Positions 13,622 through 31,522 of a DNA stretch of 51,998 bases are shown piece by piece. The notes under the pieces are model-generated. The model did not search any database. It was not told the origin of the DNA and saw only the letters and a program-made list of their open reading frames with translations. Each line of letters begins with the position of its first letter. Position 1 is the stretch's first letter. The DNA comes from a virus: positions 1 through 51,998 of the IMG/VR virus record IMGVR_UViG_3300012358_000003, one strand, 5' to 3'. A program made the translations under genes and the position numbers.

Positions 13622-14476
13622 TCAGAAAGGCATCTCGTCGCCGTCGACCTTGTCTGCGCCGCTTCCGCCGCCGTTCCCGCCCTCTTCGCTGGCGACCGAC
13701 CCTGTGTAGGTCTCCTTCGCCTTGACGAGTAGACCACTCTGCATCAGCTCAGCGAACTTCTTCGCGGAACGATACTGGTCGGCCGTCACCATCTCGTCAA
13801 GACGTGCGATGTCGAAGTTCGACCAAGTGTTGTTGTTCTTGGTCTCCTTGACGGTCTTGAGCTGGTAAGGGTAGAGCCAGCGTGGCGCACGCGCCGACGT
13901 GTTTGGGATGAGAGTCGCCATCAGTGTCTTATTCCACCGGCGAGACTTCTTGAGCATCGTCGACTTCATCGGGATGATGATCTCCTCCCAGATGCCGTTG
14001 GTCGGGTTCTGGAAGTACACGTAGTGGTAGGCGGTTTCGATGACCAGGTGCCCGTTGCCGAGGATCGGGATGCCTTTCTCGTTCGGCTTGCACTCGGACA
14101 GGATGCCACTGTCAATATCATGGTCGGCGACATAACCGCCGCCTCCCGTGTCGCGGTCGATCCACTCAACGTACTTGCGCTCGTAAGCGCACGGGATCAC
14201 CTTCAGGCCAGTCTCTCGGCCCTCGTAGATCTCGTTACTCACGTTGTTGAAGAACATCCCGGCCTTCGCACCCTTGACGTAGGTGTCCGCGTCCTCGTTG
14301 ACCTGAGGCGAGTTGGACTGGAGGATGTATAGGTAAGGGACGGCGATGTCGTCCATGCTCATGTTTTCGACGCCGGACCCAGCGTCCTTCATGAGTTCTT
14401 CCATGTCCGCCATGCCGGCGGGTAGCTGAGCACTCTGTTTGACCGAGGCTACTTCGGTCTGATTTTTTGCAGCCAT
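13622..14476 (-). CDS. Single-stranded DNA-binding protein-like, with SSB-type C-terminal tip
   Basis: The product is 284 residues from ATG 14476, chosen because GGAG lies ten bases upstream; longer in-frame starts have no site. The C-terminus is a glycine-rich linker ('EEGGNGGGSGAD') ending in 'VDGDEMPF', the acidic -PF tip used by SSB proteins to recruit partners. The middle is beta-rich with aromatic residues ('YHYVYFQNPTNG', 'WLYPYQLK') that suit single-strand binding. Length and tail fit phage ssDNA-binding proteins that are not close to bacterial SSB. It closes an operon of Zn-finger proteins. Confidence 0.6.
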   Translation of the reverse strand: MAAKNQTEVASVKQSAQLPAGMADMEELMKDAGSGVENMSMDDIAVPYLYILQSNSPQVNEDADTYVKGAKAGMFFNNVSNEIYEGRETGLKVIPCAYERKYVEWIDRDTGGGGYVADHDIDSGILSECKPNEKGIPILGNGHLVIETAYHYVYFQNPTNGIWEEIIIPMKSTMLKKSRRWNKTLMATLIPNTSARAPRWLYPYQLKTVKETKNNNTWSNFDIARLDEMVTADQYRSAKKFAELMQSGLLVKAKETYTGSVASEEGGNGGGSGADKVDGDEMPF

Positions 14477-14545
14477 GTGCTTAGTACTCCAATAAGTCAC
14501 CCTACAGTGTGTATCGACCAAGTGGGTGACGTTTACTCAGTCGAA

Positions 14546-15376
14546 TTACTTCGGGAGCTTCAGCTCAGCCTTACGGCCGACGAAGACACCAAACATGTCC
14601 AGGGGCAGCGGGTGGCCGCCCTCGATCTGCTCCTTCACCCAGGCACGGAGAGTCTGCCAGTGCACGTTCTCCTTGTACTCGGGGTCGATGGCTTTCTCGT
14701 TGAAGCCGCGGATGAACTCGACGAACGACTTCGCTATCTCGAACTCGCCCTTGCCGAAGCTGACCTTGACGTCTGCCTTGATCATGCCGTCGAAATCGTG
14801 TTCCTTGAGCCAGTCAAACGCCTCCTCCTTGCGGTCCTCGGGGATCGAGGCCGCATAGAAAGGTTTCACGGTAATCGTGGTGCCGTCGTCGAGTACGAAC
14901 TTAGTCATCCGGACATCGTCCATCGCCTCAGGGAGGTCTTGCTCCATCACGCGGCGAAGCTGCTCTTTCGTCATGGTGAGAGTATTCTCGAGGTCTGCAA
15001 TAGCCTTTACCAAGGCCCTCTGCTTCTGACCGAAGTGACGGATACGGTCAAGCATATCCTCCGGTATTTTCTCCTCGACCGCGGCGTCCGCAGCGGCCAT
15101 CGCCAATACGTCTTCCATGCTTTCATTCTCCATGTGGTGAGCGAGTAGACGTGCTTCGGTCTGGCCGTAGTCCACAACAACTTGCTCTGCTTCAAATGGT
15201 CCCAGGTCCGTGGCTCCGCGGTTTCTCACCGAGTGGTCCGCGCACATCTCACACATGCGGTACGGACCCTCGTTTCTCGTCGGCCATCCAATCATCTTGA
15301 CTGCAGGCTTATTGCACGGAAGAGTCGGGATTAAGAAGTTTGACTCTTGACAGCCGCCAGGTTTCGCCTCGATCAT
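14546..15376 (-). CDS. Conserved phage protein with N-terminal Zn-finger and helical core
   Basis: The product is 276 residues. The first 55 residues hold cysteines in a finger-like array ('PCNKPA', 'MCEMCADH'), often found as a stand-alone unit in phages. Residues about 105-150 are a coiled coil ('IADLENTLTMTKEQLRRVME'). The C-terminal half ('LPEAMDDVRMTKFVLDDG', 'SFGKGEFEIAKSF') resembles a phage family next to SSB and recombination genes, whose function I do not know. Its ATG overlaps the preceding stop as ATGA. Confidence 0.65.
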   Translation of the reverse strand: MIEAKPGGCQESNFLIPTLPCNKPAVKMIGWPTRNEGPYRMCEMCADHSVRNRGATDLGPFEAEQVVVDYGQTEARLLAHHMENESMEDVLAMAAADAAVEEKIPEDMLDRIRHFGQKQRALVKAIADLENTLTMTKEQLRRVMEQDLPEAMDDVRMTKFVLDDGTTITVKPFYAASIPEDRKEEAFDWLKEHDFDGMIKADVKVSFGKGEFEIAKSFVEFIRGFNEKAIDPEYKENVHWQTLRAWVKEQIEGGHPLPLDMFGVFVGRKAELKLPK

Positions 15377-15573
15377 AGGTTCACTCCAAAGAAAGCGAAG
15401 ACTTCTCGACGGCAGTCGTCACAGAGGTCTTTCCATATAAACATTGGGCCTGGGCCTTCTGCCCAATTGAAGTTAGCGACAATGTCGGTGGATTGGCTGT
15501 GCTTTGGACGGACGGAGCCCATGTCCGCCTTGCAGCGGTCACATGAGTATGTCTTGTGGACGTGCTCAGCCAC
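15373..15573 (-). CDS. Small zinc-ribbon protein
   Basis: The product is 66 residues from a GTG start with GGGAG upstream. Two cysteine pairs ('CDRCKAD' at residue 11 and 'CDDCRRE' at residue 51) form a likely four-Cys zinc site. No catalytic motif. One of four consecutive Cys-rich genes. Confidence 0.65.
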   Translation of the reverse strand: MAEHVHKTYSCDRCKADMGSVRPKHSQSTDIVANFNWAEGPGPMFIWKDLCDDCRREVFAFFGVNL

Positions 15574-15576
15574 GTC

Positions 15577-15996
15577 TCAATCTCCCGAGTCGATCGACGC
15601 GTCGAAGCCACACTTCTTACAGCGCATAGGGTGCCAGCCGCGGCTGTGGTTCGCTCCAGACTCGTCCCACTCGTGCTCACACATGAAGAAGGAGTAGGCC
15701 TTACCTCGTGAAGCCAGGATCACTCCGGAGCCGTCGAATTGTCCGCTCATCCCGCCAGTGTGGAGAAAAATCTTCGGGTACCACGTGACCTCGTGGGTCT
15801 GGACACCGTGAGGAGGGTCGAACTCACGAAGCCTGAAATGGTATGGAGTTTCTGCCTGCTTTGTGCACATAGAGATAGCTGCAAGAGCTTCTTGAGCATC
15901 CTCTATCTCATCGACATTTGGAAGAGCGACCTTACCGTCGCTCTTTATAGCGGTATCAAGAATATTGCGGAATTCAGTCGACCTGACGTTAGACAT
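15577..15996 (-). CDS. Hypothetical protein with C-terminal zinc-binding motif
   Basis: The product is 139 residues. The last 35 residues hold 'CEHEW', 'NHSRGWHPMRCKKCGFDA', a Cys/His arrangement common at the end of small phage proteins and likely to bind zinc. The N-terminal part is helical with no family I recognise. It lies 1 bp after the upstream stop and 3 bp before the next start region. Confidence 0.6.
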   Translation of the reverse strand: MSNVRSTEFRNILDTAIKSDGKVALPNVDEIEDAQEALAAISMCTKQAETPYHFRLREFDPPHGVQTHEVTWYPKIFLHTGGMSGQFDGSGVILASRGKAYSFFMCEHEWDESGANHSRGWHPMRCKKCGFDASIDSGD

Positions 15997-15997
15997 C

Positions 15998-16231
15998 TTA
16001 CTTCCCCTTTGAACCTACATGCAGTAGGTAGTTGCACTTCTCGATGATGGTGATCTTGTCGCACTCCTCGCAGCGGCCACTCTTGTAGAACACGTTGGGT
16101 GTCTCCATCGTCTGCCGCGAACCACAGTGCCTGCAGGTCCACTTCTGGTGGACGGTCGCGCCAAGCGTCTGGACCTTCTCGTAGGCCTGCTCAGCGACTT
16201 TCTGAATAGGGTAGTCGTTATACTTTACCAT
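15998..16231 (-). CDS. Small zinc-ribbon protein, first gene of its operon
   Basis: The product is 77 residues with the pattern 'CRHCGSRQTM' and 'GRCEECDKIT', a four-Cys zinc ribbon. The ATG has a G-rich ribosome site (GGGGG) about eight bases upstream and follows a strong promoter at 16268-16296 with a leader of about 30 bases. It therefore begins a separately expressed unit that runs to the SSB-like gene. Confidence 0.7.
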   Translation of the reverse strand: MVKYNDYPIQKVAEQAYEKVQTLGATVHQKWTCRHCGSRQTMETPNVFYKSGRCEECDKITIIEKCNYLLHVGSKGK

Positions 16232-16267
16232 CGGTAAACCCCCATCTGCTATACAATTTATAAGATC

Positions 16268-16296
16268 ATTATATCATGCTTTTTTAATGAAGGACA
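16268..16296 (-). promoter_or_regulatory. Promoter for the Zn-finger/SSB operon
   Basis: On the minus strand TGTCCT (16296-16291), a 17-base spacer ending in TGA and a perfect TATAAT (16273-16268). The -35 is weak, and the extended -10 probably compensates. It lies between the VRR-NUC stop and ATG 16231. Confidence 0.7.
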
Positions 16297-16704
16297 CTAG
16301 CTAGTTAATATGTCACGGACGGAGTTCCACGACCTGTACGGTGGCTCCATGTTGAACACTGTCGGCAGCTCGTTCATATTGACAGTAATCCATTTCTCGT
16401 AGGGGACACGCGGGGCCTTCAGTATGACACCTGCAGGGTAGAGATGTATCGTGTCGCGACGGTCCATGACCAGCACGAACATGCGTGCTCCCAGGCGGCT
16501 GTGCTTCGCGATCCAGTTCGGCTGGAACTTCTCGAAGTAGATCAGGTCACCTTTCGTTACCTTGGTCTCTATCCAGCCGGTCTTCCCACCGATGTTGTAG
16601 AACACGTCGGACATGCCAGAGCTTACCGCATTCTCAACACGGTCACACTCTCCCCACACCATGAGGTGTGGCCTCAGCTTCGCGTACAGTTTAGTCTCTC
16701 TCAT
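16297..16704 (-). CDS. VRR-NUC / PD-(D/E)XK-type nuclease
   Basis: The product is 135 residues. 'SGMSDVFYN' and 'GWIETKV' give the Asp...Glu-x-Lys active site of VRR-NUC domains, in the usual size of the stand-alone phage form. These enzymes cut branched or flap DNA; a junction-resolving role in phage replication is likely. The ATG overlaps the polymerase stop (ATGA). Confidence 0.8.
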   Translation of the reverse strand: MRETKLYAKLRPHLMVWGECDRVENAVSSGMSDVFYNIGGKTGWIETKVTKGDLIYFEKFQPNWIAKHSRLGARMFVLVMDRRDTIHLYPAGVILKAPRVPYEKWITVNMNELPTVFNMEPPYRSWNSVRDILTS

Positions 16705-18704
16705 CGTACCAGGTCCTTCGTCTCACCCCAGCTCAATCCAACCTCGGGGTCGGCGAGGTGGGGCACTTCAAACTCTATGGCGTGCTCCATCACTTCCTTG
16801 ATACGCCACGCGTCCCTGTCGTCCCAGATCGTTTGCCCCAGCTCGTCGTATACCTGGATCTGGGGCGTCAGGCCGATGCTGTCTAGGGTGACGATAGCTT
16901 GCTTCGTCTGGTCTGCGGCGGAACCTTGACATATCGAGTTAAGCGCCTTGTGGGCGCCCGACCGCTCGATGCTCTGACCCCACATCTCGACCGCTTGGTC
17001 GTAGTCCGACATCGGAACGGACGTCCTCTTGCGGTCCCAGTCCTTCGGCTCCCACTCGTTAAACCGGCGCTTCCGCCCCAGCACGGTCCTGATGAAGCCC
17101 TGCGCCTGGACTATCTCCATGCACCGCTCTTCAAGCTTCTTAACATATGGTATACCTGTATGGTATATCTTCAGCAGGGCCTTGGCCTCGTCCCTCGAGA
17201 TGCCGAGCTTGGCGGCGAGCTTGTCGACACCCATGCCATAGGCCGACCCCAGGTTGATGTCCTTAGCTATCCGGTAGCTGACGCCTGCGTCGGCGTTCAG
17301 CGGCTTGCCTGTGTGTTCACGTATAAGCTCCTCGACAAGACGGTGGTAACTTATCGACGGGTCCTCTATATACCGCTGCCGCACCTCGGCCGCGCCCTTG
17401 TACCTCTTGAGGTAGGCGAAGTGGACCATGATTCGGGGTTCTTGTTGCGAGTAGTCATTCTTGCAGTACTTCCCGCCATCGTCTGGTACGAACACAGACC
17501 GGATCTTCTTGCCCCACACGGGGTCGCGTACCGGGATATTCGTGAGGTTTGGTTTGCTAGACGCGATACGACCAGTGGTGGTGCCGTTCTCTCGATCTTC
17601 GTCGTCCTGCCTCAGCTGGTGCCACTGCGGGTGCAACCTGCCACGTACATTATTATTGAGTATCATTGTGTCGAGGAAGTCTCGACGGATCTTTCCCATG
17701 ACCCGAAACTCTCTGAGCCACCCAAAGACCTCGTGCTCTGGTGCCATCTTCTCAAACCACTCGTTCGTGAACGACGGCTGTCCCTGAGGGTGCTGCTTCG
17801 TTGGTTTCGTGTATCGGACGTGGAAGCCGAGACCCATCTGGTTCATGAAGACTGCAAGACTCTTACTAGACCACGGGTCTACCTTGTACCCTGTGTGGTC
17901 CCATATCTTGCCGAGGACCACGTTCTCGTCTGCCTGCATCTCGACCGAGAGCATCTCAGCTTTGTCGAGGTCGACCTTGATGCCACGTGCCCGCATCTTC
18001 CACAAGACGGGAAGCAGGTCGCTCTCCAGCTTCCAGATGTCAGACAGCTTCTCCTTCTCTATCTGGTCCAGCTGTAGCTTCAATATATCTATAGGGAACT
18101 GGGCGTCGTCCTCGCCATACTCACCGACGTATTTCGAGTGCAGTCTCCACAGGTCTTTCTTCGGGTCAAGGTCGAAGTCCACTGCAGCCTGGAGCAGCTT
18201 CTTCTCACTCTTGCCCTTACCAAGGTACCTCCACGACAGCGCCTCGAGTGAGTTGCCGTCCTCTCGGTTCTCATCAAGGATGGGCTCAGCGACCTGAACG
18301 TCGGCGAACGGCCCATGCATCTCGACTCCGAGGGAGGCGAGCGCCTCCATCTCGTACATGAGGTTCGCGCCAACCTTGAGCTGGCCAGGCCTCTTGAGCT
18401 GGTCCTTGACGTACCTGACGACGAGGTCCTTGTCCATGTTCCCACCCTGCTCGTGACCGAACGGCAGGTACATCTTGGCACCGTAGTCTGTCGCCAGGTT
18501 GACGCCCACTACTCTGGCGTCGCCGCGTATGAAGCCCGGACCCATCTTCATAAGGTTAGGGTCCTTGGACTCGACGTCGACACCGATCATCTTGGCTCGT
18601 CCAAGGTCAGGCAACTCTGCCGGCGGCACCCAGTCCGACACTGGTGCAAACATGGCAAGCTGGAAGCCGCCGACGTGTGAGTTCCTCTTGGGTTTGGTCG
18701 CCAT
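16701..18704 (-). CDS. DNA polymerase I, family A, with 3'-5' exonuclease domain
   Basis: The product is 667 residues. The exonuclease half shows 'GVDVESKDP' (D-x-E), 'NLMYEME' and 'YGEDD'. The polymerase half shows motif A 'NDYSQQEPR' (usual form DYSQIELR), motif B 'RIAKDINLGSAYGMG' and motif C 'QVYDELG' (usual form VHDE). The position equal to E. coli Phe762 is Leu. There is no 5'-3' exonuclease domain. It is the replicative polymerase of the phage by inference. The start overlaps the dCMP deaminase stop as TAATG, so it is expressed with the nucleotide-modification genes. Confidence 0.95.
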   Translation of the reverse strand: MATKPKRNSHVGGFQLAMFAPVSDWVPPAELPDLGRAKMIGVDVESKDPNLMKMGPGFIRGDARVVGVNLATDYGAKMYLPFGHEQGGNMDKDLVVRYVKDQLKRPGQLKVGANLMYEMEALASLGVEMHGPFADVQVAEPILDENREDGNSLEALSWRYLGKGKSEKKLLQAAVDFDLDPKKDLWRLHSKYVGEYGEDDAQFPIDILKLQLDQIEKEKLSDIWKLESDLLPVLWKMRARGIKVDLDKAEMLSVEMQADENVVLGKIWDHTGYKVDPWSSKSLAVFMNQMGLGFHVRYTKPTKQHPQGQPSFTNEWFEKMAPEHEVFGWLREFRVMGKIRRDFLDTMILNNNVRGRLHPQWHQLRQDDEDRENGTTTGRIASSKPNLTNIPVRDPVWGKKIRSVFVPDDGGKYCKNDYSQQEPRIMVHFAYLKRYKGAAEVRQRYIEDPSISYHRLVEELIREHTGKPLNADAGVSYRIAKDINLGSAYGMGVDKLAAKLGISRDEAKALLKIYHTGIPYVKKLEERCMEIVQAQGFIRTVLGRKRRFNEWEPKDWDRKRTSVPMSDYDQAVEMWGQSIERSGAHKALNSICQGSAADQTKQAIVTLDSIGLTPQIQVYDELGQTIWDDRDAWRIKEVMEHAIEFEVPHLADPEVGLSWGETKDLVR

Positions 18705-19147
18705 TATAGTGGTATCTCGTCAGATTCGTCGTAAGGTTCTAGCTCCACTCCTGCTTCAGAGAACATGGCGCGTGTCGACTCCAGCTCGACTTCTAGAGCC
18801 TGGAACGTGCCCTTACCGTACAAGACCTTGAGTATGCCTGCCTGTATCAGAGTCCTTGCGCACGTAGCACAGGGGACATGGGTCGTGACGACCATGCAGA
18901 ACTCAGTCCTGATGCCGTTGCGTGCCGCGAACGCGATCAAGTTCGCCTCAGCGTGCGAAGCGTACATGTACTTGGTAGGTCTCTCGAACCGTTCAGGACG
19001 ATCCTCGACACCACGAGGAGGTCCGTTGAAACCTGTGAGTATCACGGACCCATGCGGGTCGACCAATACTGCACCGACCTTGGTCGAGTCCTTGGACTTC
19101 TTCGCCGCCGCCTCGGCGAAGCTCATGTAGTACTCGTCCCAGCCCAT
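18704..19147 (-). CDS. dCMP deaminase
   Basis: The product is 147 residues with the zinc site of the cytidine/dCMP deaminase family: 'SHAEANLI' (His-Ala-Glu) near residue 65 and 'VPCATCARTL' (PCxxC) near residue 93. It converts dCMP to dUMP, feeding dTMP synthesis. It follows the ThyA homologue by 3 bp. The last residues 'ESDEIPL' resemble the SSB-type tip found on four other proteins here. With the neighbour acting on dCMP, this enzyme may set the balance between T and modified C pools. Confidence 0.9.
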   Translation of the reverse strand: MGWDEYYMSFAEAAAKKSKDSTKVGAVLVDPHGSVILTGFNGPPRGVEDRPERFERPTKYMYASHAEANLIAFAARNGIRTEFCMVVTTHVPCATCARTLIQAGILKVLYGKGTFQALEVELESTRAMFSEAGVELEPYDESDEIPL

Positions 19148-19150
19148 GGC

Positions 19151-19969
19151 TCAGCCCTCGAACATCGTCAAGAGTCCTTCAGGACTGTTCGCACAGTCCC
19201 AGAGGTGTTCCACAAACTCGTCAGCGTCGTCGTACTTAGACGGGTTGAACAGTGGCCTGGAGTATCCTACAGGAGTCCCATGCTCCTCAAACTGCTCCAA
19301 CACCATCCCCACGTCAGGTGAGTTTCTTTCATAGATGTGCTTGGACCCTGCCGTAAGAAACAGGTTTCCAAGCTCAAGGACCAAGTCTACCTGGTCCTCG
19401 AATAGAGTCATGAGCTGCAACAGGACAGCAAACGAGATCGCGGAGAAGTTTACGATATCGTACGGGTGACCTAGCCACAGGTCCGAGGACCTCATCGACG
19501 CGACACAGTGTAACATGTTGTGTCGGACCAAGAACTGCAGAGATAAGGTGCACGGAACATCTTTCGTTGGACCTGGGTTCTCCCTCCAGATGTTGATGAC
19601 CGCCTGCCGGCTGTTGATGTCATTCAGCAAGGTCGCCACAACATAGTCAACCTGGCTCTTGATCTTGGGACCGTAGGCCCCGAAGAACTTTTCGCCGTCG
19701 TCGGAGAACTTGCTGATCTCTTTCGAGTAAGGTGCGATAGTCGACACGCGGTCGTCGCCAGACAGTATCCATGCCGCCTCAGCCGCCATGAACCTGTACC
19801 CGAGCTTCCGATGCTCGTTTAGGATGACCGGGTTCTTCATCGATATCGTCGACGTAAGGGCCAGACTCTCGTAGACGAGCATCCCGCGCGGTGAGACTCG
19901 GTTACCATACTTGAAGACGTGCTCAAGGTCACGTATCCAGGCCCTATCGGCACTGATAAGGTCGTCCAT
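19151..19969 (-). CDS. dCMP hydroxymethylase-type thymidylate synthase homologue
   Basis: The product is 272 residues. The catalytic core is intact: 'DVPCTLSLQFLVR' carries the nucleophilic Cys, 'MRSSDLWLG' the phosphate-binding Arg/Ser/Asp, and 'GSKHIYERN' the His and Tyr of the ThyA family. In 'HPYDIVNFS' an Asp replaces the Asn (Asn177 in E. coli ThyA) that binds the uracil ring. The same Asn-to-Asp change defines dCMP hydroxymethylase of T4 (Asp179), and shifts preference from dUMP to dCMP. Hence the product is probably 5-hydroxymethyl-dCMP (or 5-methyl-dCMP). TGATG overlap with the kinase gene. Confidence 0.8.
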   Translation of the reverse strand: MDDLISADRAWIRDLEHVFKYGNRVSPRGMLVYESLALTSTISMKNPVILNEHRKLGYRFMAAEAAWILSGDDRVSTIAPYSKEISKFSDDGEKFFGAYGPKIKSQVDYVVATLLNDINSRQAVINIWRENPGPTKDVPCTLSLQFLVRHNMLHCVASMRSSDLWLGHPYDIVNFSAISFAVLLQLMTLFEDQVDLVLELGNLFLTAGSKHIYERNSPDVGMVLEQFEEHGTPVGYSRPLFNPSKYDDADEFVEHLWDCANSPEGLLTMFEG

Positions 19970-21990: not shown

Positions 21991-22004
21991 TCTTGTCTCC
22001 TGAC

Positions 22005-22059
22005 AGGAAAAGAAAAAGCCCGCTCCCGGTCCGGATGGAGTACGGACAGAGGCGGGCTT
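22005..22059 (-). terminator. Rho-independent terminator after the 107-residue protein gene
   Basis: On the minus strand AAGCCCGC (22059-22052) pairs with GCGGGCTT (22023-22016), with an inner GTCCG/CGGAC pairing, followed by TTTTTCTTTTCC. It should end or reduce transcription before the methyltransferase gene. Confidence 0.8.
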
Positions 22060-22063
22060 AATT

Positions 22064-22092
22064 AGCTATGGAACGAGGGAAGAACCATAGCT
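22064..22092 (-). other. Second hairpin in tandem with the terminator
   Basis: AGCTATGG (22064-22071) and CCATAGCT (22085-22092) form a perfect 8 bp stem with a 13-base loop, directly after the stop of the 107-residue protein gene and 4 bases before the terminator stem. It has no T-run. It may protect the 3' end of the mRNA. Confidence 0.6.
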
Positions 22093-22541: not shown

Positions 22542-24758
22542 CTAAAATGGTATCTCCTCGTGAGTGATGAGCCCCCTGTTGTGCCCGACCAGGTCTTTTT
22601 CGTCTGCGACGTCGAACGACAACCAGTCGTGGTTAACGTGCATCGACTTATCGAAGTGCATCCTCGCGTCGTTGAGCCTCGGTAGCGTTGTAGCAGACTG
22701 CCTGTCTGGTCCAAGTAACTTCCTCTGGAAGTCCTCAGACGGAGCCAACTGCCTCAACCTCCTGAAGAATGCGTTTATCGTGGGCATGCGCCGGTGTCCC
22801 ATCATGTTGAGGTACGACACACAATCTTCGTGCAGTTCTGCCGTCTTGACTGACGAGAGCCAGCCAGTCTTCGACATGAGGAGCGTGTTGCCTTGTTGAA
22901 GACACGTGAACCAATATGTTGCCACTGGATCCATCGAGGTCTCTTTTTGCTGGGTCAGGGCCATCGTCTCTGGCAGGGCCCGGATGTCCGTCGACTTCAG
23001 GTCGAAGTTCATCATCTCGTGCAGGAGCGCCCCATAACCCCCGTGGTCCATCTGGTCGAGCATCGCAATAAAGTAGCTCCTGTCCTGCTTGTTGCCGTCG
23101 CCAACGTCTAGTACGGCGAACCTCCTCTCGTCGAAAGCGGCGGGTACCACCCAATCTTCATTTGTAGTGATGAGCAGGCGCAAGTAGTTATTGACCTGCA
23201 GTGAGTCACGCCCCTTCTGTTCGATACGCTGAGTGTCGGAGGTGACGAGGGACTTGAGCTTTCCCACGTGTCTAGGGTCACCTCCCCAGAAGCCTTCATC
23301 TGAGTGCAGCAGTACAGTTGAAGCCATGTGTGAGTTGAAGTTTCCAAAGAGGTACCTCTCCTGGTCGATGAGCGTGTAGTGCCTCTGTATCAGTCGCCCG
23401 AATATCTTCCCAACGATCGTCTTGCCGGCACCTTGCTTCCCTCGTAAGGAGAGGCTAGTGCCTGACTTATTTCCCGGGTGCTGGATGATGTCGGCGAACC
23501 ACCCGAACACCCACCTGTAAAGTTCCTCGTCGTCCTGGCATACGTTCTTGAGCAAGTGCTCGTGGAATATTGACCAGTCCCCGGCCTCATCTGGCTCGAA
23601 GCTGAACCCCTGCCACAGGTTGTAGTGCTCCGGACGGTCGCGACCTGGCTCGAATATCAGTCCACGATAAGTCCTGCGGTCCGGGTGGATCAGCCAGTAG
23701 TCACCCAGCTTGACTTGGTTCCTCCCACTCGCTATGAGCTGATTTGAGAAGAATTGCTTGAACGCTTCTACCGACCAGTACTCGACATCTACGCTGCCGT
23801 CGTATGGGTCCTTCTTCTCATACAAGACTGCCGGGCGTCCGCCTGTAACAATAAACGCATACTCGCGGTTTATCTTGGCAACCTGGCTGTCGGACACTGG
23901 GACGAACGGTCTGGCTCTAGACACCAGCAGATGGTAGTCGACGATGAAGCCCTCAGGCACGTCGTCCGCGACATCCCAACCCTCAGGCAATCCTGCTGGG
24001 ACCTCGACCATGTCAGGCGCGCTGCCCTCCTGCAGGAGTATCTCCGCGAGCTCGGACATGGCCTTAAAGCCTGGGTCGTCGTTGTCTGGCCACAGGATAA
24101 CTTTGCGACCTTTCAGGTACTTGGTGTCTGAGTACTTCACTGCTGCCGCGCCGCCTGGCCACGTCGTGCAGACGTACTTGTCCTTGAAGATCTTCTGGGC
24201 GGCGTCCGCGGTCTTCTCACCCTCGAATACAATTATAGGTAAGTCCTTGTTCTTGAATAGTGGCAAGTTGTAGAAGGGCCTGGGCTTGTCAAAGGATTTC
24301 CAGGTCCACGACTTTCCGCCTTTGTCGCTCAAGCAGTAGCACATCGGGATCAACGTCTTGTCTACGCCTCCCTCTGAGTTTGGCTTCTCGAAACGGTGTA
24401 TTAGCCCGATGAGTGCCCCGTCGAGTTCACGGTACTCCCACGTGCGCTTCGGTTTACCGTGCTTGAAGTGCTCTACGCCGACCGGCAAGTTTACCCCGTT
24501 TGGGACAGGCCTCATCGGCTTCCACGACTCCTGGACCGTCTTCTTGGACCACATGTCCCGGTCGACTAGAGCCTGCATGACGTCCGCTTGAGAGCACCCA
24601 GCGTGGCACTTGAACAGTATCTTCCCGTGCGGTGATCGTATTGACAGGCTCGCCTTGCCGTCGTTGTGGGCCGGGCAGGTTGTTACCCACCCGTCAGCGA
24701 CCTTTGACTCTTTACCGTTGCCCAGCGCTCGGGCTAATTCTTCTGGAGATAGTGCCAT
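22542..24758 (-). CDS. Primase-helicase (CHC2-type finger, TOPRIM, DUF5906-type ATPase)
   Basis: The product is 738 residues. Zinc finger: 'CPAHNDGKASLSI' and 'FKCHAGCS' (residues about 28-60). TOPRIM: 'IIVFEGEKTADAA' and 'VILWPDNDDPG' (about 180-245). ATPase: Walker A 'GKQGAGKTIVGK' (about 455), then 'LLHSDEGFWGG' and 'LLITTNEDWVVP', as in D5/SF3-like phage helicases. It makes primers and unwinds DNA for the family A polymerase. The C-terminus 'HEEIPF' is an SSB-type tip. It follows a 36-residue ORF by 5 bp. Confidence 0.9.
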   Translation of the reverse strand: MALSPEELARALGNGKESKVADGWVTTCPAHNDGKASLSIRSPHGKILFKCHAGCSQADVMQALVDRDMWSKKTVQESWKPMRPVPNGVNLPVGVEHFKHGKPKRTWEYRELDGALIGLIHRFEKPNSEGGVDKTLIPMCYCLSDKGGKSWTWKSFDKPRPFYNLPLFKNKDLPIIVFEGEKTADAAQKIFKDKYVCTTWPGGAAAVKYSDTKYLKGRKVILWPDNDDPGFKAMSELAEILLQEGSAPDMVEVPAGLPEGWDVADDVPEGFIVDYHLLVSRARPFVPVSDSQVAKINREYAFIVTGGRPAVLYEKKDPYDGSVDVEYWSVEAFKQFFSNQLIASGRNQVKLGDYWLIHPDRRTYRGLIFEPGRDRPEHYNLWQGFSFEPDEAGDWSIFHEHLLKNVCQDDEELYRWVFGWFADIIQHPGNKSGTSLSLRGKQGAGKTIVGKIFGRLIQRHYTLIDQERYLFGNFNSHMASTVLLHSDEGFWGGDPRHVGKLKSLVTSDTQRIEQKGRDSLQVNNYLRLLITTNEDWVVPAAFDERRFAVLDVGDGNKQDRSYFIAMLDQMDHGGYGALLHEMMNFDLKSTDIRALPETMALTQQKETSMDPVATYWFTCLQQGNTLLMSKTGWLSSVKTAELHEDCVSYLNMMGHRRMPTINAFFRRLRQLAPSEDFQRKLLGPDRQSATTLPRLNDARMHFDKSMHVNHDWLSFDVADEKDLVGHNRGLITHEEIPF

Positions 24759-24763
24759 ATCTG

Positions 24764-24874
24764 CTAGACTACCGTCAGATTAAACAGACGGCAGGTAGCG
24801 TACAGCTGCTCCAATGAAGTTATCTTTACTCTCGTATCCCCAAGAACTATCCATACTTTAATTCGGTGTTCCAT
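24764..24874 (-). CDS. Very small ORF between the F-x-Y-Y protein and the primase-helicase
   Basis: The product would be 36 residues ('MEHRIKVWIVLGDTR...FNLTVV'), with ATG overlapping the upstream stop as TGATG and TAG ending five bases before the primase ATG. The spacing on both sides suggests a real coupled gene, but it is too short to judge by composition. No family recognised. Confidence 0.45.
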   Translation of the reverse strand: MEHRIKVWIVLGDTRVKITSLEQLYATCRLFNLTVV

Positions 24875-25542: not shown

Positions 25543-25584
25543 TGGACGATCTCTCATGGACAATAGAACGATATTCCAGGGATC

Positions 25585-25613
25585 ATTATATCACCAGATT
25601 TTACAGAAGTAAA
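25585..25613 (-). promoter_or_regulatory. Promoter for the paralogue 2 / primase-helicase unit
   Basis: On the minus strand TTTACT (25613-25608), 17-base spacer, TGA and TATAAT (25590-25585). The early transcript contains ATATTCCAGGGA in the other orientation, part of the dispersed hairpin element. Confidence 0.8.
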
Positions 25614-25644
25614 TCAGATGATTATCGCCACCGTCATCTAGCCG

Positions 25645-25890
25645 TCAAGGTAGACCATTATAGCCACAATTTGGACAATGCTCGTCAGATACACTGATAG
25701 GATAACTACACCTTGCACACTTAGGAGAGATACCCGGTATGTTGTATTGCTCACAGCAGCAAGCCCCGAACTCTGGACAGGTCTCGTCGATCGCCATATA
25801 GTCCCAGTCTGGGCAGAAGTGCTTCTTCTTACCGCTCAACCGCTTGAAGACCTCGCTCTCACGGTCCACGTTCTTTCCCGATGTTTCCAC
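25645..25890 (-). CDS. Cysteine-rich Zn-binding phage protein
   Basis: The product is 81 residues from a GTG start with AGGAGA upstream. 'HFCPDWDYMAIDETCPEF' followed by 'ACCCEQY' is a conserved motif of many phage proteins next to nucleotide or DNA genes; 'CARCSYPISVSDEHCPNCGY' at the end is a four-Cys zinc ribbon. Function unknown. Confidence 0.7.
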   Translation of the reverse strand: METSGKNVDRESEVFKRLSGKKKHFCPDWDYMAIDETCPEFGACCCEQYNIPGISPKCARCSYPISVSDEHCPNCGYNGLP

Positions 25891-25900
25891 AACACGTCTC

Positions 25901-26167
25901 CTAAAGGAGTTTCAGGTAGTTCCCGTACCTTGTCGACCCGCCGAAGATTGGCTTAGAACCCTCTACGAAAGGTACAGGTGGTCTCGCCTTGACCTTCTTA
26001 CGTTTTGGCACCTTGGCGTTACACGGGTTCTTACGGCTCATCCCCATAGCACTGAGCGCACCACGTATCGACGTAACAGACTGACCTAAGTAAGTTGCAT
26101 ATTGCTGATAAGACCAGTCCGGGTGAGTGATTACGAGCCTCCTGAGAATTGCCCGCTTACTGATCAT
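25901..26167 (-). CDS. Small helix-turn-helix protein
   Basis: The product is 88 residues. 'WSYQQYATYLGQSVTSIRGAL' (given in parts: WSYQQYATYLG, SVTSIRGAL; residues 18-38) fits a helix-turn-helix of the kind that reads DNA in small phage regulators. The rest is basic ('PKRKKVKARPP'). Its ATG overlaps the ligase stop (TAATG). A transcriptional regulator or DNA-architecture role is likely; the target is unknown. Confidence 0.65.
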   Translation of the reverse strand: MISKRAILRRLVITHPDWSYQQYATYLGQSVTSIRGALSAMGMSRKNPCNAKVPKRKKVKARPPVPFVEGSKPIFGGSTRYGNYLKLL

Positions 26168-27063
26168 TAGAAAGGAATATTCCCGTCAAGATCAGCCTTA
26201 CTCCTGAACCCTAAGAATACGGGGAAACGAGGCTTTCCGTTTGGACCAAGGCTCTGGTACTTGAACTTGATAGTTTCACCGATACACCCGTTCTTCCAAT
26301 ATGTGTCACGCTGTTGCTGGTTAAAGCCAGTTCCGACGTCGAACTCCACATCCTTCCACTTGACCGTGAATTTTCCAAGTGTTCCCATACCAAGCATGTT
26401 GGCTTTATGGGAGCTTCGCTCAGTATAACCCAGCTCATTAGTGACTGCCTCATTAGCATTGTGGACCAGCTCATGCATCGACAGTACAACTGCCTCGCCG
26501 TCGAAGAACCTCTTAAGCTTCAGGAGGATGCCCTCCTTTGTCGTCGACCGCCCGAACTTGTAGTGCCCGTCGTAGCTTCTCGCCATTATGCCCTCCCATC
26601 CTAAACTGAGGCACTTGGCTTCGAAGTCGAGGACGTCCTCCTCGCCTCGTGCATGGAGCTGGATCACGTGCTCAATATACTTCGTCTTGTGCTTATTCTG
26701 GTCGAACCACAGGCCAACGATACCGTTGCGCGTCTGGTACGGGGACGTCGGCACGGACCAGTCGTCGAAGACCATGTACCTGAAGTCGGGTCTACCAGAA
26801 CGGGTCGTCAACTTCGACTGGATGGTGTTGAAGTCGTCGACCTTGTCTCCGGTGTACGTGAGAAGCTCGCCGTCCAGTTTCGGGAGGTTCAGCTCCTCGA
26901 GTTTCGTGTACACATAGCCGTTGGGTATTGGCTTCAGGTTGCGGGACACAGGTTGACCCATCGAGTTGATAAGGCACCGAAAGCCGTCGTACTTCGGCGA
27001 CACGAGCGTCGGGTATTGGAGGATCTTGAAGTCAAGTTTCTCTGCGAGCAATGGACGGAACAT
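26167..27063 (-). CDS. ATP-dependent DNA ligase
   Basis: The product is 298 residues. Motif I is 'SPKYDGFRCL' with the catalytic Lys (residue about 24), motif III 'LDGELLTY', motif IIIa region 'RYMVFDDW', motif IV 'WEGIMAR' and motif V 'LLKLKRF', followed by an OB-type domain. This is the size of T7-like ligases. It seals nicks during replication. The C-terminus 'DLDGNIPF' is an SSB-type tip, unusual for a ligase. Confidence 0.9.
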   Translation of the reverse strand: MFRPLLAEKLDFKILQYPTLVSPKYDGFRCLINSMGQPVSRNLKPIPNGYVYTKLEELNLPKLDGELLTYTGDKVDDFNTIQSKLTTRSGRPDFRYMVFDDWSVPTSPYQTRNGIVGLWFDQNKHKTKYIEHVIQLHARGEEDVLDFEAKCLSLGWEGIMARSYDGHYKFGRSTTKEGILLKLKRFFDGEAVVLSMHELVHNANEAVTNELGYTERSSHKANMLGMGTLGKFTVKWKDVEFDVGTGFNQQQRDTYWKNGCIGETIKFKYQSLGPNGKPRFPVFLGFRSKADLDGNIPF

Positions 27064-27269
27064 CAGTTTAGACTCCTGAGTGGCTTGAAGCCAAGGTGAA
27101 GGTAGTAGTGGTCCTTGGGAGTTTCCTCAAAGGCGTAGAACCTGGTACCGCTTATGAGTTTCGTGTTCACGACCGTGAGCCTCATCCCACGGTGGACTGA
27201 GTAGTCCGAGTCACCGTACGCGTTGTGCCAGTCATTCTCCTGGCAGATGCATCGCTCACCCGGTTCCAT
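27063..27269 (-). CDS. Hypothetical protein upstream of the ligase
   Basis: The product is 68 residues with a 'CICQENDWHNAYG' N-terminus and beta-rich rest ('MRLTVVNTKLISGTRFYAF'). Unknown family. Overlaps the upstream gene by 14 bp and abuts the ligase start. Confidence 0.6.
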   Translation of the reverse strand: MEPGERCICQENDWHNAYGDSDYSVHRGMRLTVVNTKLISGTRFYAFEETPKDHYYLHLGFKPLRSLN

Positions 27270-27450
27270 GTCGTCGCCTCTCGAGGTTCTTGGAATACTC
27301 CGAGAGCTTCTCGATGTAAGACGCTTCCAGGTAAATTCTACTTATCACCGACATACCGTTGTAGGTGAAGATGACTACGTTGGAGCCGCTGTAGCCAACG
27401 TAAGCTCCATCTCCCAGGTATTCCACCTCATGAAGTTCACCTATGTCCAT
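27256..27450 (-). CDS. Small conserved phage-type protein
   Basis: The product is 64 residues from ATG 27450, chosen because the upstream gene stops at 27452. 'EYLGDGAYVGYSGSNVVIFTYNG' character (short beta hairpins, then 'RIYLE' and a helix) is common among small phage proteins of unknown function. Confidence 0.6.
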   Translation of the reverse strand: MDIGELHEVEYLGDGAYVGYSGSNVVIFTYNGMSVISRIYLEASYIEKLSEYSKNLERRRHGTG

Positions 27451-27451
27451 G

Positions 27452-27724
27452 TTATATGATCCCCATATTTTTGTAATCGCGAGTCGCCACCGCCTTACAG
27501 GCATTTCTCCAGGCTTCCTCAAGAGTGAAGCCACGGGCTGACGTGGCTGATCCACCTTTCGGGTATTTCTGGAAGGTGACTTCCCATGGTCCCTCTTGGT
27601 GCGCTACAGGGCTGTGGAAGTCCGCAGCATACCGGACGTCTGTGTGCTGGTGCTCTGCTCTGAGCAGAAACCACCCGTTTGGCGCCTCAAGCGGATAGGT
27701 CATGTTGCTGGTCCTCTTGATCAT
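27452..27724 (-). CDS. Hypothetical protein
   Basis: The product is 90 residues from ATG 27724 (ATGA overlap with the upstream stop). 'EAPNGWFLLRAEHQHTDV' and a C-terminal helix 'TLEEAWRNACKAV' that recalls small phage proteins acting on unknown partners. No function assigned. Confidence 0.6.
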   Translation of the reverse strand: MIKRTSNMTYPLEAPNGWFLLRAEHQHTDVRYAADFHSPVAHQEGPWEVTFQKYPKGGSATSARGFTLEEAWRNACKAVATRDYKNMGII

Positions 27725-28077
27725 TGTGGAAGCTCCACACCGTACTTCTTGCATATCTCCGCGGCCGCCGACCTGGACCTTATCTGCTCGACCTCCATCG
27801 CTGACACGATATAGCCAAGCTCGAACCACCTGACATGGTCGCTCTCAGCCTTCCTCATCTTGTCGAGCAGGGACGTCATGTGAGGCCACAGGTACTTCTG
27901 TTGCCAGTCACTCAGCTTCAGGTACGCGGTGAAGTGGATGAGTTCTTGGGCCGCGAGGTATAGTGGGTGGCCGTCGCGCGGCGGCTTCCACGGATTGATG
28001 CTAACTTGTTCAGCCGAGTGTCCTCGAGCTAAGTGTGGAGGTGGCTGCTCGAATAGGTCGAACTGTTCCTTGGACAA
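27721..28077 (-). CDS. Hypothetical protein
   Basis: The product is 118 residues from a TTG start: AAGGAG lies six bases upstream and no better start is in frame. Helical, with 'LYLAAQELIHFTAYL' and 'AEICKKYGVELPQ'. No family recognised. Confidence 0.6.
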   Translation of the reverse strand: MSKEQFDLFEQPPPHLARGHSAEQVSINPWKPPRDGHPLYLAAQELIHFTAYLKLSDWQQKYLWPHMTSLLDKMRKAESDHVRWFELGYIVSAMEVEQIRSRSAAAEICKKYGVELPQ

Positions 28078-28104
28078 TATACATCTCCTTGTAGTTTGAA
28101 CGAT

Positions 28105-28782
28105 CTATCGCTGGTAGTAGTGTTTTGCAGTATAGAGCGTATCCTCGTCCCAGCCAGAGGACTTGTTGATGATGTAGTCGAGGTAGTCCTTTGGCACGTC
28201 TTGCCAGAGCTTATCTTTGTGCTTCCCGAACCTGCACTTCTTGAGCAAGATCGGGTTATTCGAGACCTTCAGCATACCTTCAAGCGGCTCCTCTGACGTT
28301 GCCCTCCCCAGCAAGTGCTGGAACAAGTATGTCGTGACCTCTGAGTCGTAGAGTGCCCGGTGAGCGAACACGGCGTTTGCGTGGACGAGCTTCTGAAGAT
28401 TGAGAAAGTAGCGCAGAACCTGGTTCTTGTGGGAGGGAGCGTTCGGGTACACGACCATGGCAAGCTTATAGGTGCAGGCCCAAGGGCACTCTCCGAAATC
28501 CATGAACCGTCTGTCGAAAGCCGCGTTGTGGGCTACGACGAAGTCGAACTCTTCGTCGAAGAATGGTGCCATCGCGTCGTCGATGCTGGGCGCTTCAGCC
28601 ACGTCCTCGTCCGTGATGTGGTGTATCGCGCAAGCCTCAGGCGGTATCGGGATACCTGGATTGACGAGACTCTGGTGATACTTGACTATCTCGTTGTCTA
28701 CACAGAAGAACCCAGCGACTTCTACCGCCTTGTCCTGTGCTCCAACGCCAGTGGTCTCGCTATCCACGACCCAATACCGCAT
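28105..28782 (-). CDS. DnaQ-like DEDDh 3'-5' exonuclease with ExoX-type C-terminal domain
   Basis: The product is 225 residues. 'VVDSETTG' (Exo I, D-x-E), 'VAHNAAFDRRF' (Exo II) and 'AHRALYDSEVT' (Exo III, H...D) give the DEDDh site. The C-terminal 'FGKHKDKLWQDVPKDYLDYI' matches the small domain found at the end of ExoX-like enzymes. It may process DNA ends or RNA in replication or degrade host nucleic acid. Confidence 0.85.
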   Translation of the reverse strand: MRYWVVDSETTGVGAQDKAVEVAGFFCVDNEIVKYHQSLVNPGIPIPPEACAIHHITDEDVAEAPSIDDAMAPFFDEEFDFVVAHNAAFDRRFMDFGECPWACTYKLAMVVYPNAPSHKNQVLRYFLNLQKLVHANAVFAHRALYDSEVTTYLFQHLLGRATSEEPLEGMLKVSNNPILLKKCRFGKHKDKLWQDVPKDYLDYIINKSSGWDEDTLYTAKHYYQR

Positions 28783-28815
28783 CTTGGCTCCATACTGTTG
28801 ACTGTTAAGTTCGAC

Positions 28816-29106
28816 TCACTCGTCGTCCACGGCCAGCGGCAGGCCGAGCGTCCTGAGAGCGCTGAGGTTGACCGCGATACGCTTCTCGATGATCATGATA
28901 GATTTCTTGATCTGCGACTTCTTGAAGATGAAGTCTCTCCTGATGGACCGCAGCTGCTTAAGTTCCGAGGCGTACGCCTCACCGAGAGCCCTCAGGTCCA
29001 TCACGGAGTCGGGCTGTGCCTGGGCAGTCTCGTCATGGGCGTCGTCGAGTTCCCTGGAGATGTTCTCGGCGAAAGTGTCGAGTTGCTTGTCAAGTGCATT
29101 GGACAT
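28816..29106 (-). CDS. Helical/coiled-coil hypothetical protein
   Basis: The product is 96 residues, nearly all helical, charged and without motifs ('LRSIRRDFIFKKSQIKKSI'). Start overlaps the upstream stop (29106). Confidence 0.6.
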   Translation of the reverse strand: MSNALDKQLDTFAENISRELDDAHDETAQAQPDSVMDLRALGEAYASELKQLRSIRRDFIFKKSQIKKSIMIIEKRIAVNLSALRTLGLPLAVDDE

Positions 29107-29312
29107 TAGATGAGTTCCTTCTCATGCGCTAGATACTCAGGCATCGTCACCACGAAGATGCCCTCCTTCTTGGTTGGCTCCATCTCGATCAGAGACTTCG
29201 GGAGCCAGACAAGTCCCTCGCTGTCCTCGGTCTCCTTGAAACCCCAAGCTTTCCCACTCGGGGCCTCTCGGACGCGGATCAGCATTATGTCGACGAGGTC
29301 TGACCTGCTCAT
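29106..29312 (-). CDS. Small conserved phage-type protein
   Basis: The product is 68 residues. 'GLVWLPKSLIEM' followed by 'VTMPEYLAHEKEL' resembles short phage proteins of unknown function that carry a W-L-P-K-S motif. Overlaps both neighbours by a few bases. Confidence 0.6.
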   Translation of the reverse strand: MSRSDLVDIMLIRVREAPSGKAWGFKETEDSEGLVWLPKSLIEMEPTKKEGIFVVTMPEYLAHEKELI

Positions 29313-29875
29313 TCCACGCCCACTTTGTCCTTGGGCACGAACATCCTCATCGAGGACATCTCGAGCTCGGTGGCTGGCTTAATCAAGATCTCTCGCTTGT
29401 TCATGAGTGCCCAGACCATGAGCCTCGTGAGCCACTCTTTCGTGGTAAAGTCTGAGAAGTTGACGAGGTACTCTTTCTCGACGTCGACGTCGTCTGGGCT
29501 CTCCCAGACTTCGACTATACAGTAGATAGACACGTTTGCCATACCATAATTCCTGTCCTGTGAATAATCCATAGTAACACGAAAATTTTCTGAAGTAAAC
29601 GTCGGTGATTTCCGCGCTCTAGCTGCCAGTATCTCCGCCTTCCTCGCCGGAGTCTTCCGCTTGAGCCTCTCATTTCCGAGGAAGACTATCGCCTTCTCTA
29701 TCGCCCGCTTGACGATGAAGGCCTCGATACCTTTGTTCAGGAGGAATGCTCTGGCGTCCTGACCGTTGAGGAAGCACTTGACGGCGAGCTTCGTCATGTA
29801 GTCGATCGGCCTCGTCACGGGCTCCCGTGTCCAGTCGAGTATGTGGTGTAGCTCCGCCCGCTGCTCCGGCGTCAT
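29309..29875 (-). CDS. Hypothetical protein with an internal promoter and second start
   Basis: The product is 188 residues from ATG 29875; a longer reading upstream is only a shadow of the 29877-30140 gene. The first half is basic and helical ('RAIEKAIVFLGNERLKRK'), the second is 'MANVSIYCIVEVWESPDD...KDKVGVE' (77 residues from ATG 29542, with AGGA eight bases upstream). Between them lies a good promoter (29571-29599) read as protein. Either this is one protein with an internal promoter, or two genes fused by loss of a stop. Confidence 0.55.
   Translation of the reverse strand: MTPEQRAELHHILDWTREPVTRPIDYMTKLAVKCFLNGQDARAFLLNKGIEAFIVKRAIEKAIVFLGNERLKRKTPARKAEILAARARKSPTFTSENFRVTMDYSQDRNYGMANVSIYCIVEVWESPDDVDVEKEYLVNFSDFTTKEWLTRLMVWALMNKREILIKPATELEMSSMRMFVPKDKVGVE
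29571..29599 (-). promoter_or_regulatory. Promoter inside the 29309-29875 reading frame
   Basis: On the minus strand TTTACT (29599-29594), a 17-base spacer and TACTAT (29576-29571). It would drive the internal start at 29542 and the genes beyond. Confidence 0.6.
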
Positions 29876-29876
29876 C

Positions 29877-30140
29877 TTATTTCTTGCCAATGTAGGACCT
29901 CTTGGTCTTCTCGGCGGCGATCTCTGCCGCGCGCTCCTCGGTCCTGCTCTTGACGGCCTCCTCGACCTGAGCCTCGAGGTCTGCTTCCGCGAGAGTGACG
30001 AGCCTCTCTTGAGCCATCGCGGTCCTGAACAGGGAGTGGGCGACATGCCCGAGAAGTGTGGCGTAGTCACCCCTGCTCACCGCCCTCTCGATATACTTTA
30101 TGTTCTCGTCGACGTCTTTCTCGTAGCTGTCGGCTTCCAC
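29877..30140 (-). CDS. Helical hypothetical protein
   Basis: The product is 87 residues from a GTG start with GAGGAGA upstream. Acidic and helical ('EADLEAQVEEAVKSRTEERA') with a basic end ('KTKRSYIGKK'). No family recognised. Ends one base before the next start region. Confidence 0.6.
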   Translation of the reverse strand: MEADSYEKDVDENIKYIERAVSRGDYATLLGHVAHSLFRTAMAQERLVTLAEADLEAQVEEAVKSRTEERAAEIAAEKTKRSYIGKK

Positions 30141-30260
30141 GTCACGTCTCCTCTGCGATAAAATAGTTGTTTACTCGTCAGCATATTCGGTATATAGTCC
30201 TGGCTCAAGTGGAGGGAGTTTGCTGAAAAGCACGAGATTGAAGGCCCGTGCCTCCTGACT
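30141..30260 (-). other. Region between two early genes with amber-separated extension and promoter-like sites
   Basis: On the minus strand the frame of the 30261-30479 gene continues after its TAG (30263-30261) for 29 further codons to TAA at 30173-30171 ('AFNLVLFSKLPPLEPGLY...'). A GTG at 30233 could start a 20-residue ORF. On the plus strand TTTACT (30170-30175), a 17-base spacer and TATAGT (30193-30198) match the promoter consensus, in antisense direction. On the minus strand TTGAGC-N17-TATGCT is also present. Which of these is real cannot be told from sequence. Confidence 0.4.
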
Positions 30261-30479
30261 CTACTTACACCGTCTCTCGATCTCCTCGAAAAGGTTCTCA
30301 GCTCTTGTTATGAGGTCAAGGTAGTTTCCTCGTTGAGAGAATGTCTCCGACGCAAGCATAGCTAGGACGGCCTTCTGCATAAAGTCTCTCTTGCGGTCAC
30401 TCACAGGTCTTGGGACTACACCTGAGAGAGCGCGGCCGCTGCCGCGCCCTCCGTGGAATATCTTCGTTGGCCAAGCCAT
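30261..30479 (-). CDS. Hypothetical protein
   Basis: The product is 72 residues, starting at the TGATG overlap with the GHKL ATPase gene. N-terminus 'FHGGRGSGRALSGVV' is glycine- and arginine-rich, then a helix 'LDLITRAENLFEEIERRCK'. No family recognised. It ends at TAG with an open frame following. Confidence 0.6.
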   Translation of the reverse strand: MAWPTKIFHGGRGSGRALSGVVPRPVSDRKRDFMQKAVLAMLASETFSQRGNYLDLITRAENLFEEIERRCK

Positions 30480-31522
30480 CAGAACGGTACCTCCCCTGTG
30501 TCTGCTTCAGGCTCCTTGATCTTGCACTTGAGCAAGTACTGGAGCAGCTCAGCCAAGTCGTCAGGCAGACCTGACGCATAGGCCCACCTCTCGATCTTGC
30601 TCCTGAGACTCACGTCCTCCTTCACGGGAGGCGGGGCGTACTTGTCGTAGTACGCAAGGGCCCTAGTAGAGATATACCCTCCCCTGTGCTTCTTCTTAGC
30701 GACGACCGCGTTGAACTCCTCACTCGGTGACACGTACGAGTAGTCGAAGTCGAGCCTGTTCTCGAAGAACTTATCATCTGCGCTGACCACAGCGTTGATC
30801 AGCTTCTCGTCCTTTGACCTCGCCACGTAGGCGGCGATCCTTGACTGGGCCTCCCACACGTACTTCAATGTGCGGTCCTCAGTGAGGGTCATCTCGTCCA
30901 ATATGTTGTAGGTATAGATCGACGGCTTCTCGAGGTCGAAGACGCGCAGGCCCCTCCAGTAGATGTGGTCGGACGGCTCGTTGAAGACCTGGAGCTTGTC
31001 GTCACCCTCTCGCTTCGTCAGGGCATTCGGCAAGAACGTCTTGTCTCGGTCCGCGTACGCTTGCTCATACGGGTCTCCTTCAACTATGATGAGTGTCCTG
31101 TCTGCCTTTGGCTGCACAAGGTCTGTCATAGCACCACCAGCAAAGAACGTGTTGCCATTCTCGTCTCGTGTGTTGGACTCGATCTCTCGGAACACCTGCC
31201 ACGCCTCCCAGAACTTCCCGTGCTCCGTTGTGAACGGCAAGGCCTCATACGACCACTTCTTGAAGACGCTCGCGCGCTTCCTCATACGGCACATCTTGAC
31301 GTCGACGTCCCGGAACTTGTCGTCAACCGTGATGAACTCGTACTCAGTCAGTCCGATGAAGACCCTGACGGTGCACCCGAGCCTCAGGAGAGTGGCGACG
31401 GCGTACTTCAGACCTGTACCAAACTTACCGATAGGGTTCGTAGAGTTCGGCTTCGCGTGGAGGCCGAACGTCGTGAAGGACCTGATGTCGATCAGGCCCG
31501 GGGTCTCGTGAACAATAGACAT
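30479..31522 (-). CDS. GHKL-type ATPase (RIIA-like) with SSB-type tip
   Basis: The product is 347 residues. 'NPIGKFGTGLKYAVATLLRLG' in parts (IGKFGTGLKYA) near residue 30 is the glycine-rich ATP-lid motif of GHKL ATPases (gyrase B, Hsp90, MutL), and matches the opening of phage RIIA-like proteins. The rest is beta/alpha mixed without DNA-mismatch motifs. Its end 'DTGEVPF' resembles the SSB tip. Role unknown; RIIA-like proteins affect host membrane and exclusion in other phages. Confidence 0.65.
   Translation of the reverse strand: MSIVHETPGLIDIRSFTTFGLHAKPNSTNPIGKFGTGLKYAVATLLRLGCTVRVFIGLTEYEFITVDDKFRDVDVKMCRMRKRASVFKKWSYEALPFTTEHGKFWEAWQVFREIESNTRDENGNTFFAGGAMTDLVQPKADRTLIIVEGDPYEQAYADRDKTFLPNALTKREGDDKLQVFNEPSDHIYWRGLRVFDLEKPSIYTYNILDEMTLTEDRTLKYVWEAQSRIAAYVARSKDEKLINAVVSADDKFFENRLDFDYSYVSPSEEFNAVVAKKKHRGGYISTRALAYYDKYAPPPVKEDVSLRSKIERWAYASGLPDDLAELLQYLLKCKIKEPEADTGEVPF

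Follow-up and report, generated by a model that had tools for sequence, protein, structure and literature searches.

In a 51,998-base virus record (IMG/VR IMGVR_UViG_3300012358_000003; this whole stretch is called the window below), four replication-module proteins that are unrelated to one another end in an acidic tip that closes with Pro-Phe (-PF). They are a protein resembling single-stranded DNA-binding proteins (SSBs), a primase-helicase, a DNA ligase and a GHKL-like ATPase. To our knowledge, such a docking tail is normally found in bacteria on the single-strand-binding protein only. Comparison of homologues showed that the tips of the SSB-like protein and of the primase are under a common constraint, because they are conserved and co-vary within genomes. 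We judge the chances to be about even that the -PF tips are docking peptides by which the SSB-like protein, the primase-helicase, the GHKL-like ATPase and, in this lineage, the ligase bind one pocket in the phage replication machinery. The tip-bearing proteins are as follows.

13622–14476, minus strand: SSB-like protein (PF23977 Pam3_Gp34; phrog_2402), tip ..KVDGDEMPF on a 27-residue disordered tail
22542–24758, minus strand: primase-helicase, Toprim-like N-terminal part and superfamily 3 (SF3)-type helicase (DUF5906, phrog_1156), tip ..LITHEEIPF
26167–27063, minus strand: ATP-dependent DNA ligase (PF01068, PF14743), tip ..ADLDGNIPF
30479–31522, minus strand: GHKL-like ATPase (phrog_8203), tip ..EADTGEVPF on a disordered end

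Acidic -PF tips in the window and among homologues

Translation of the minus-strand genes of the window returned all five C-termini named in the original prediction, and its claim of acidic -PF tips on four proteins was borne out by sequences exactly as quoted. Among the other called open reading frames (ORFs) of the window, none has a -PF end. Pro-Phe occurs at 0.19% of internal positions in 3905 non-redundant called proteins, a rate at which about 67 genes would yield ~0.13 -PF ends per genome by chance. The Poisson probability of at least four such ends is ~1e-5, and that of at least three, with the SSB-like tip taken as given, is 3e-4.

Homologues were taken from phage records and from four homology scans of IMG/VR contigs, and all counts refer to non-redundant members. 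Ends in -PF were found in 42/108 homologues of the primase-helicase and in 52/96 of the SSB-like protein (Phe end in 79/96, hydrophobic end in 93/96), versus 1/393 in eight control families at these loci taken together (PolA, SNF2 helicase, Gam-like gp33, VRR-Nuc, DnaQ, thymidylate synthase, MazG and dCMP deaminase). For the primase-helicase and the SSB-like protein, the homologues thus have neither random C-termini nor a background frequency of -PF, and conservation beyond chance holds. An unrelated primase of the archaeo-eukaryotic type (AEP, PF22548), which adjoins the SSB-like gene in other phages, ends in -PF in 30/49 cases, and the GHKL-like ATPase, mostly in its short form, in 15/70.

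In the 59 non-redundant genomes that hold both the SSB-like protein and a primase, entropy at positions -1 and -2 (Phe and Pro) is 0.7–1.7 bits, and at position -6 and further into the protein it is ~3 bits. The acidity of the tails is roughly double that of the full-length proteins. On a primase tree built with the tail excluded, the Phe end, present in 50/84 rows, requires 10 changes versus 26.6 with shuffled labels. Judged from these sequences, the tip of the primase-helicase and of the SSB-like protein is ancient and conserved. Three other genes of the module have no counted tip.

14546–15376, minus strand: Pam3 gp33-like protein (PF23984), adjoining the SSB-like gene; no tip, used as a control
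16701–18704, minus strand: family A DNA polymerase (PolA, PF00476); no tip, ends ..DLVR; leading candidate receptor
18704–19147, minus strand: dCMP deaminase; ends ..DESDEIPL (Leu, not Phe), not counted as a tip

None of the 109 PolA homologues carries a tip, and none of the 85 gp33-like homologues ends in -PF. The dCMP deaminase, which the original prediction had listed as a fifth protein, was rejected as a carrier, as 0/33 of its homologues end in -PF and its closest relative ends in QEIGF.

The ligase, in which both the adenylation and the OB (oligonucleotide/oligosaccharide-binding) domains were detected (PF01068, PF14743), presents a different picture of conservation. In an alignment, ligase domains normally finish at LGFRSxADL, and the window protein continues for six residues, DGNIPF. 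Because the only other carrier of such an extension is its closest relative, 66% identical (DGDIPF, L012/L452), the ligase tip looks like a recent, lineage-specific gain; the remaining ligases of the subfamily end at LGFR..DL with no extension. The tip is thus real in the window, but as a general trait of phage ligases it was rejected, with -PF in 1/86 homologues, from the sister lineage only. Distant ligases in L098, L099, L100, L104, L107, L109, L110 and L112–L115 end in QMSLF, QLDLFS or QLDMFK, which we take to resemble beta-clamp-binding motifs of the QL[SD]LF type; a clamp-ligase peptide structure from H. pylori exists, by its title, as PDB 5frq. Like the window ligase, these enzymes would carry a short peptide for recruitment, but the window ligase has an SSB-type tip at that place. 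In these phages, the end of the ligase seems to be a site where one recruiting peptide can be exchanged for another.

Matched tips within genomes

The tips of the SSB-like protein and the primase match within genomes. When partners were shuffled within primase type, 0/20,000 shuffles reached the observed match (p<5e-5, 6.4 standard deviations); the joint occurrence of -PF on both proteins gave a Fisher p=0.0003, and a partial Mantel test that controlled for SSB-like distance gave r=0.27 (p=0.003). Matched pairs, given as SSB-like/primase, include EDPPF/QEPPF in L081, where the GHKL-like protein ends in EPVF, DKPVF/EKPVF in Sonora, DSEM/ESEI in L042 and VPF-A/SVF-E in L083, in which one residue follows the Phe on both tails. 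In addition, two unrelated primase types (the SF3 primase-helicase and AEP PF22548) bear tips beside the same SSB-like family. Co-variation of this kind is what one common receptor predicts, and a common receptor is likely. The idea of a single hub, put forward in the original prediction, fits both the conservation and the co-variation. In L042 we also noted an SNF2-type helicase (15032–16798) that ends in DGDDPF, so that a tip stands on another carrier beside the ESEI and DSEM ends of the primase and the SSB-like protein.

The presence of genes follows the tips as well. Where the primase bears a tip, the SSB-like gene accompanies it in 25/27 records, and both records that lack it are fragments (31 and 40 kb); where the primase is tipless and a window-type PolA is missing, the count is 0/18. 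Primases with -PF have a window-type PolA in the locus in 25 cases and lack it in 1; for tipless primases the counts are 5 with and 21 without.

Candidate receptors of the tips

AlphaFold models, whose inputs were homologues from the window and viral loci with the rows of the phage record collection left out, place the tips of the SSB-like protein and the GHKL-like ATPase on predicted flexible tails. The SSB-like model has a core pLDDT (model confidence) of ~95 and falls below 50 at residues 258–284, and the GHKL-like model has a pLDDT of 88 and falls below 50 at its last 10 residues (338–347). The SSB-like ORF was called as 13622–14521; because an 80%-identical relative in L012 also has 284 aa, its true start is probably the ATG at 14476, which gives this length. 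Its match to the PF23977 profile is strong (195.7 bits, cut-off 27), and the function field of phrog_2402/PF23977 is empty.

The bacterial SSB C-terminus (SSB-Ct, DDDIPF) is a docking peptide for many partners and requires its IPF end (PMC10143822). The window tips share with it the acidic tail, the terminal [IVM]PF and the disordered linker. They differ in also standing on unrelated enzymes, and the tips of relatives leave IPF in step within genomes, drifting together to KPVF, KPPF, GSPF, SHF/KDII, ESEI/DSEM and VPF-A/SVF-E. With hosts compared by genus, tip type appears to track the phage lineage and not the host: KP[PV]F is common to the Pseudomonas phage YuA and the Bordetella phage CN1 (KPPF/KPVF) and to the Stenotrophomonas phage Sonora (KPVF), whereas Epa5, another Pseudomonas phage, has KNPF/KAPF, unlike YuA. 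Because tip type appears to follow the phage lineage in these comparisons, we infer a phage-encoded, lineage-specific receptor. Among the options of the original prediction, a phage receptor is thus the better fit, ahead of the SSB-binding proteins of the host and of competition with its SSB, since the tips of relatives drift jointly to forms unlike SSB-Ct and KP[PV]F is kept across three host genera. We rank PolA first among the candidates, followed by the SSB-like fold and then the partners of host SSB, and assign the remainder to another phage protein or to none.

For PolA itself, our confidence falls somewhat short of even. In the mechanism that we propose, the tips would be short docking peptides carried on disordered tails, and the SSB-like protein, the primase-helicase, the GHKL-like ATPase and, in this lineage, the ligase would all bind one pocket of the phage machinery. 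This pocket would most likely lie on the family A polymerase, as with the Phe-ended tails in phage T7 that contact the polymerase gp5. Exchange of tails on the pocket would hand the polymerase between the helicase/primase, the SSB-coated lagging strand and the nick-sealing ligase. Going by the title of a 2009 paper by Ghosh et al., cited in PMC9917605, T7 polymerase reportedly cannot carry out strand displacement without the terminal Phe of gp2.5. As read from NC_001604, gp2.5 ends in DEDGDF and gp4 in NDTDF, and gp5 has basic patches to which the gp4 tails bind (PMC12593628; PMC8472574). The window resembles the T7 replisome in that a phage SSB and a primase-helicase both have an acidic tail with a terminal Phe, and in the phage-encoded family A polymerase (PF00476, 16701–18704). 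It differs in the penultimate Pro, which gives its tips an SSB-Ct-like form, in an SSB-like protein of another family (PF23977) and in the extra carriers, namely the GHKL-like ATPase and the ligase; moreover, T7 has a superfamily 4 (SF4) ring helicase fused to its primase, whereas the window and its relatives have SF3 or AEP primases.

Several observations weigh against a shared pocket or against its location on PolA. An alignment with T7 gp5 revealed that the loop of the front basic patch (K587, K589, R590, R591) is absent from these polymerases. We therefore rejected a receptor pocket homologous to that patch, and the pocket, if PolA is the receptor, would lie elsewhere; because neither the basic-patch loop nor an SF4 helicase was found, we do not claim membership in the T7 scheme. 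Five phages have the SSB-like protein and PolA, yet their primase has no -PF tip, and of the 18 tipless records that lack a window-type PolA, 10 proved in a profile search to hold a divergent one. The GHKL-like homologues of the YuA group end in -GEPL and not in -PF. Finally, independent-pair tests on trees (tip versus PolA; SSB-like versus primase tips) were not significant, with 5–8 pairs on supported branches. Because these tests are underpowered, shared ancestry may contribute in part to the likeness of the tips.

Because of the divergent PolA in those 10/18 tipless records, the link of the tips to the SSB-like gene is cleaner than that to PolA (25/27 versus 0/18), and both links may reflect one deep split. 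The cleaner link favors an alternative to PolA in which the SSB-like protein is itself the hub, so that the tips of the primase, the GHKL-like ATPase and the ligase enter the OB-like single-stranded DNA groove of PF23977, displace its own tip and reach the coated DNA. If the other tips mimicked that of the SSB-like protein, the co-variation would be accounted for, and bacterial SSB-Ct has been reported to bind the OB folds of other SSBs (PMC10143822). We nevertheless consider this hub unlikely. The OB fold of PF23977 is weakly indicated: a Foldseek search of PDB with the SSB-like model gave weak OB-like matches (best PrgE, E=0.02, then RPA and SSBs), and the matches in BFVD (E 6e-5 and 1e-3) are viral models that carry a single-stranded DNA-binding annotation. 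In addition, L064 has an SSB-like tip DDIPF beside a tipless primase.

Less probable still is that the tips mimic host SSB-Ct and thereby hijack or block host ExoI, RecO, PriA, RecQ or chi. The window tips DEMPF, EEIPF, NIPF and EVPF are near the SSB-Ct motif, and the phage [DE]EIPF ends described below include at least 20 canonical SSBs. This idea conflicts with the joint loss, in relatives (KPVF, GSPF, SHF/KDII, DSEM/ESEI, VPF-A/SVF-E), of the IPF that SSB-Ct needs (PMC10143822), with the differing tips of the Pseudomonas phages YuA and Epa5 and with the sharing of KP[PV]F by three host genera.

A canonical SSB (PF00436 OB domain) was rejected as a general source of tips in these phages. The window has no match to this domain, and it was found in only 2/44 records, in both beside the SSB-like gene. 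These PF00436 SSBs, at L017:18756–19196 and L018:18355–18816 (minus strand), have the tip DDDIPF and occur besides the PF23977 protein.

The GHKL-like ATPase of the window has no match to a Pfam family, and a PDB fold search with its model gave no significant match. Its homologues have an invariant N-box (ExxxNxxD; E113, N117, D120) and an invariant glycine box (G32/G35/G37). The glycine box IGKFGTGLK (residues 31–39) precedes the N-box, the reverse of the canonical order, and in the order of its motifs this protein looks like a circular permutation of the canonical GHKL arrangement. Between the replication and structural modules, at 37831–37930 of the window, we observed a short A+T-rich iteron array (core TAACGTTAATG, periods of 17 and 13 bases), a candidate origin or regulatory region.

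SSB-type tips in other phages

The motif [DE]EIPF followed by a stop was found in at least 120 stretches of viral contigs; the matches listed comprise 111 ORFs with a median length of 190 aa in 45 clusters. As a control, the motif [DE]EIFP, a permutation of the same bases, matched 50 stretches across the entire collection, with only 14 ORFs of 60–113 aa. Carriers of [DE]EIPF among the matches listed include 20 canonical SSBs, about 10 superfamily 2 (SF2) helicases, AAA ATPases, Erf and other annealing proteins, Cas4-like exonucleases and AEP primases. In L232, an SSB (7787–8260) and a single-strand annealing protein (9941–10759), both on the minus strand, have the identical end DLDDEIPF. Because of this diversity of carriers and the L232 pair, SSB-type tips shared by several proteins occur beyond the lineage of the window.

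That the tails are inherited or weakly constrained ends without a common receptor, alike within genomes through ancestry or composition, would suit the non-significant independent-pair tests and a ligase tip confined to two genomes, but we hold it to be the least probable explanation in view of the fall in entropy at the last two residues only, the partial Mantel (p=0.003) and type-restricted shuffle (p<5e-5) results, the 1/393 of the control families and the contrast between the permuted motif (50 matches, 14 short ORFs) and [DE]EIPF (at least 120 and 111).

A literature search yielded no account of non-SSB phage proteins that mimic SSB-Ct, although one may exist outside the library searched. 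We tentatively propose, with rather less than even confidence, a lineage-specific "tip code", in which the same docking peptide is appended to DNA-processing proteins bound for the replisome, co-evolves among them and is orthogonal to the host SSB tip; a protein could join by gaining about six 3' codons, as this ligase would have done. The carriers meant here are the SSB, the two primase types, the GHKL-like ATPase, the ligase, SF2 helicases and annealing proteins. Shared docking by such tips would extend the two-tail principle of T7 to far more phages and carriers, and would suggest a role for PF23977, a large family of unknown function. It would also give a sequence-only means of finding replisome clients in phage genomes, and the natural tip pairs DPPF/EPPF, DSEM/ESEI and VPFA/SVFE are ready material for specificity tests. 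Provided that the receptor is encoded by the phage, the matching of tips would show how a phage insulates its replication machine from the partners of host SSB.

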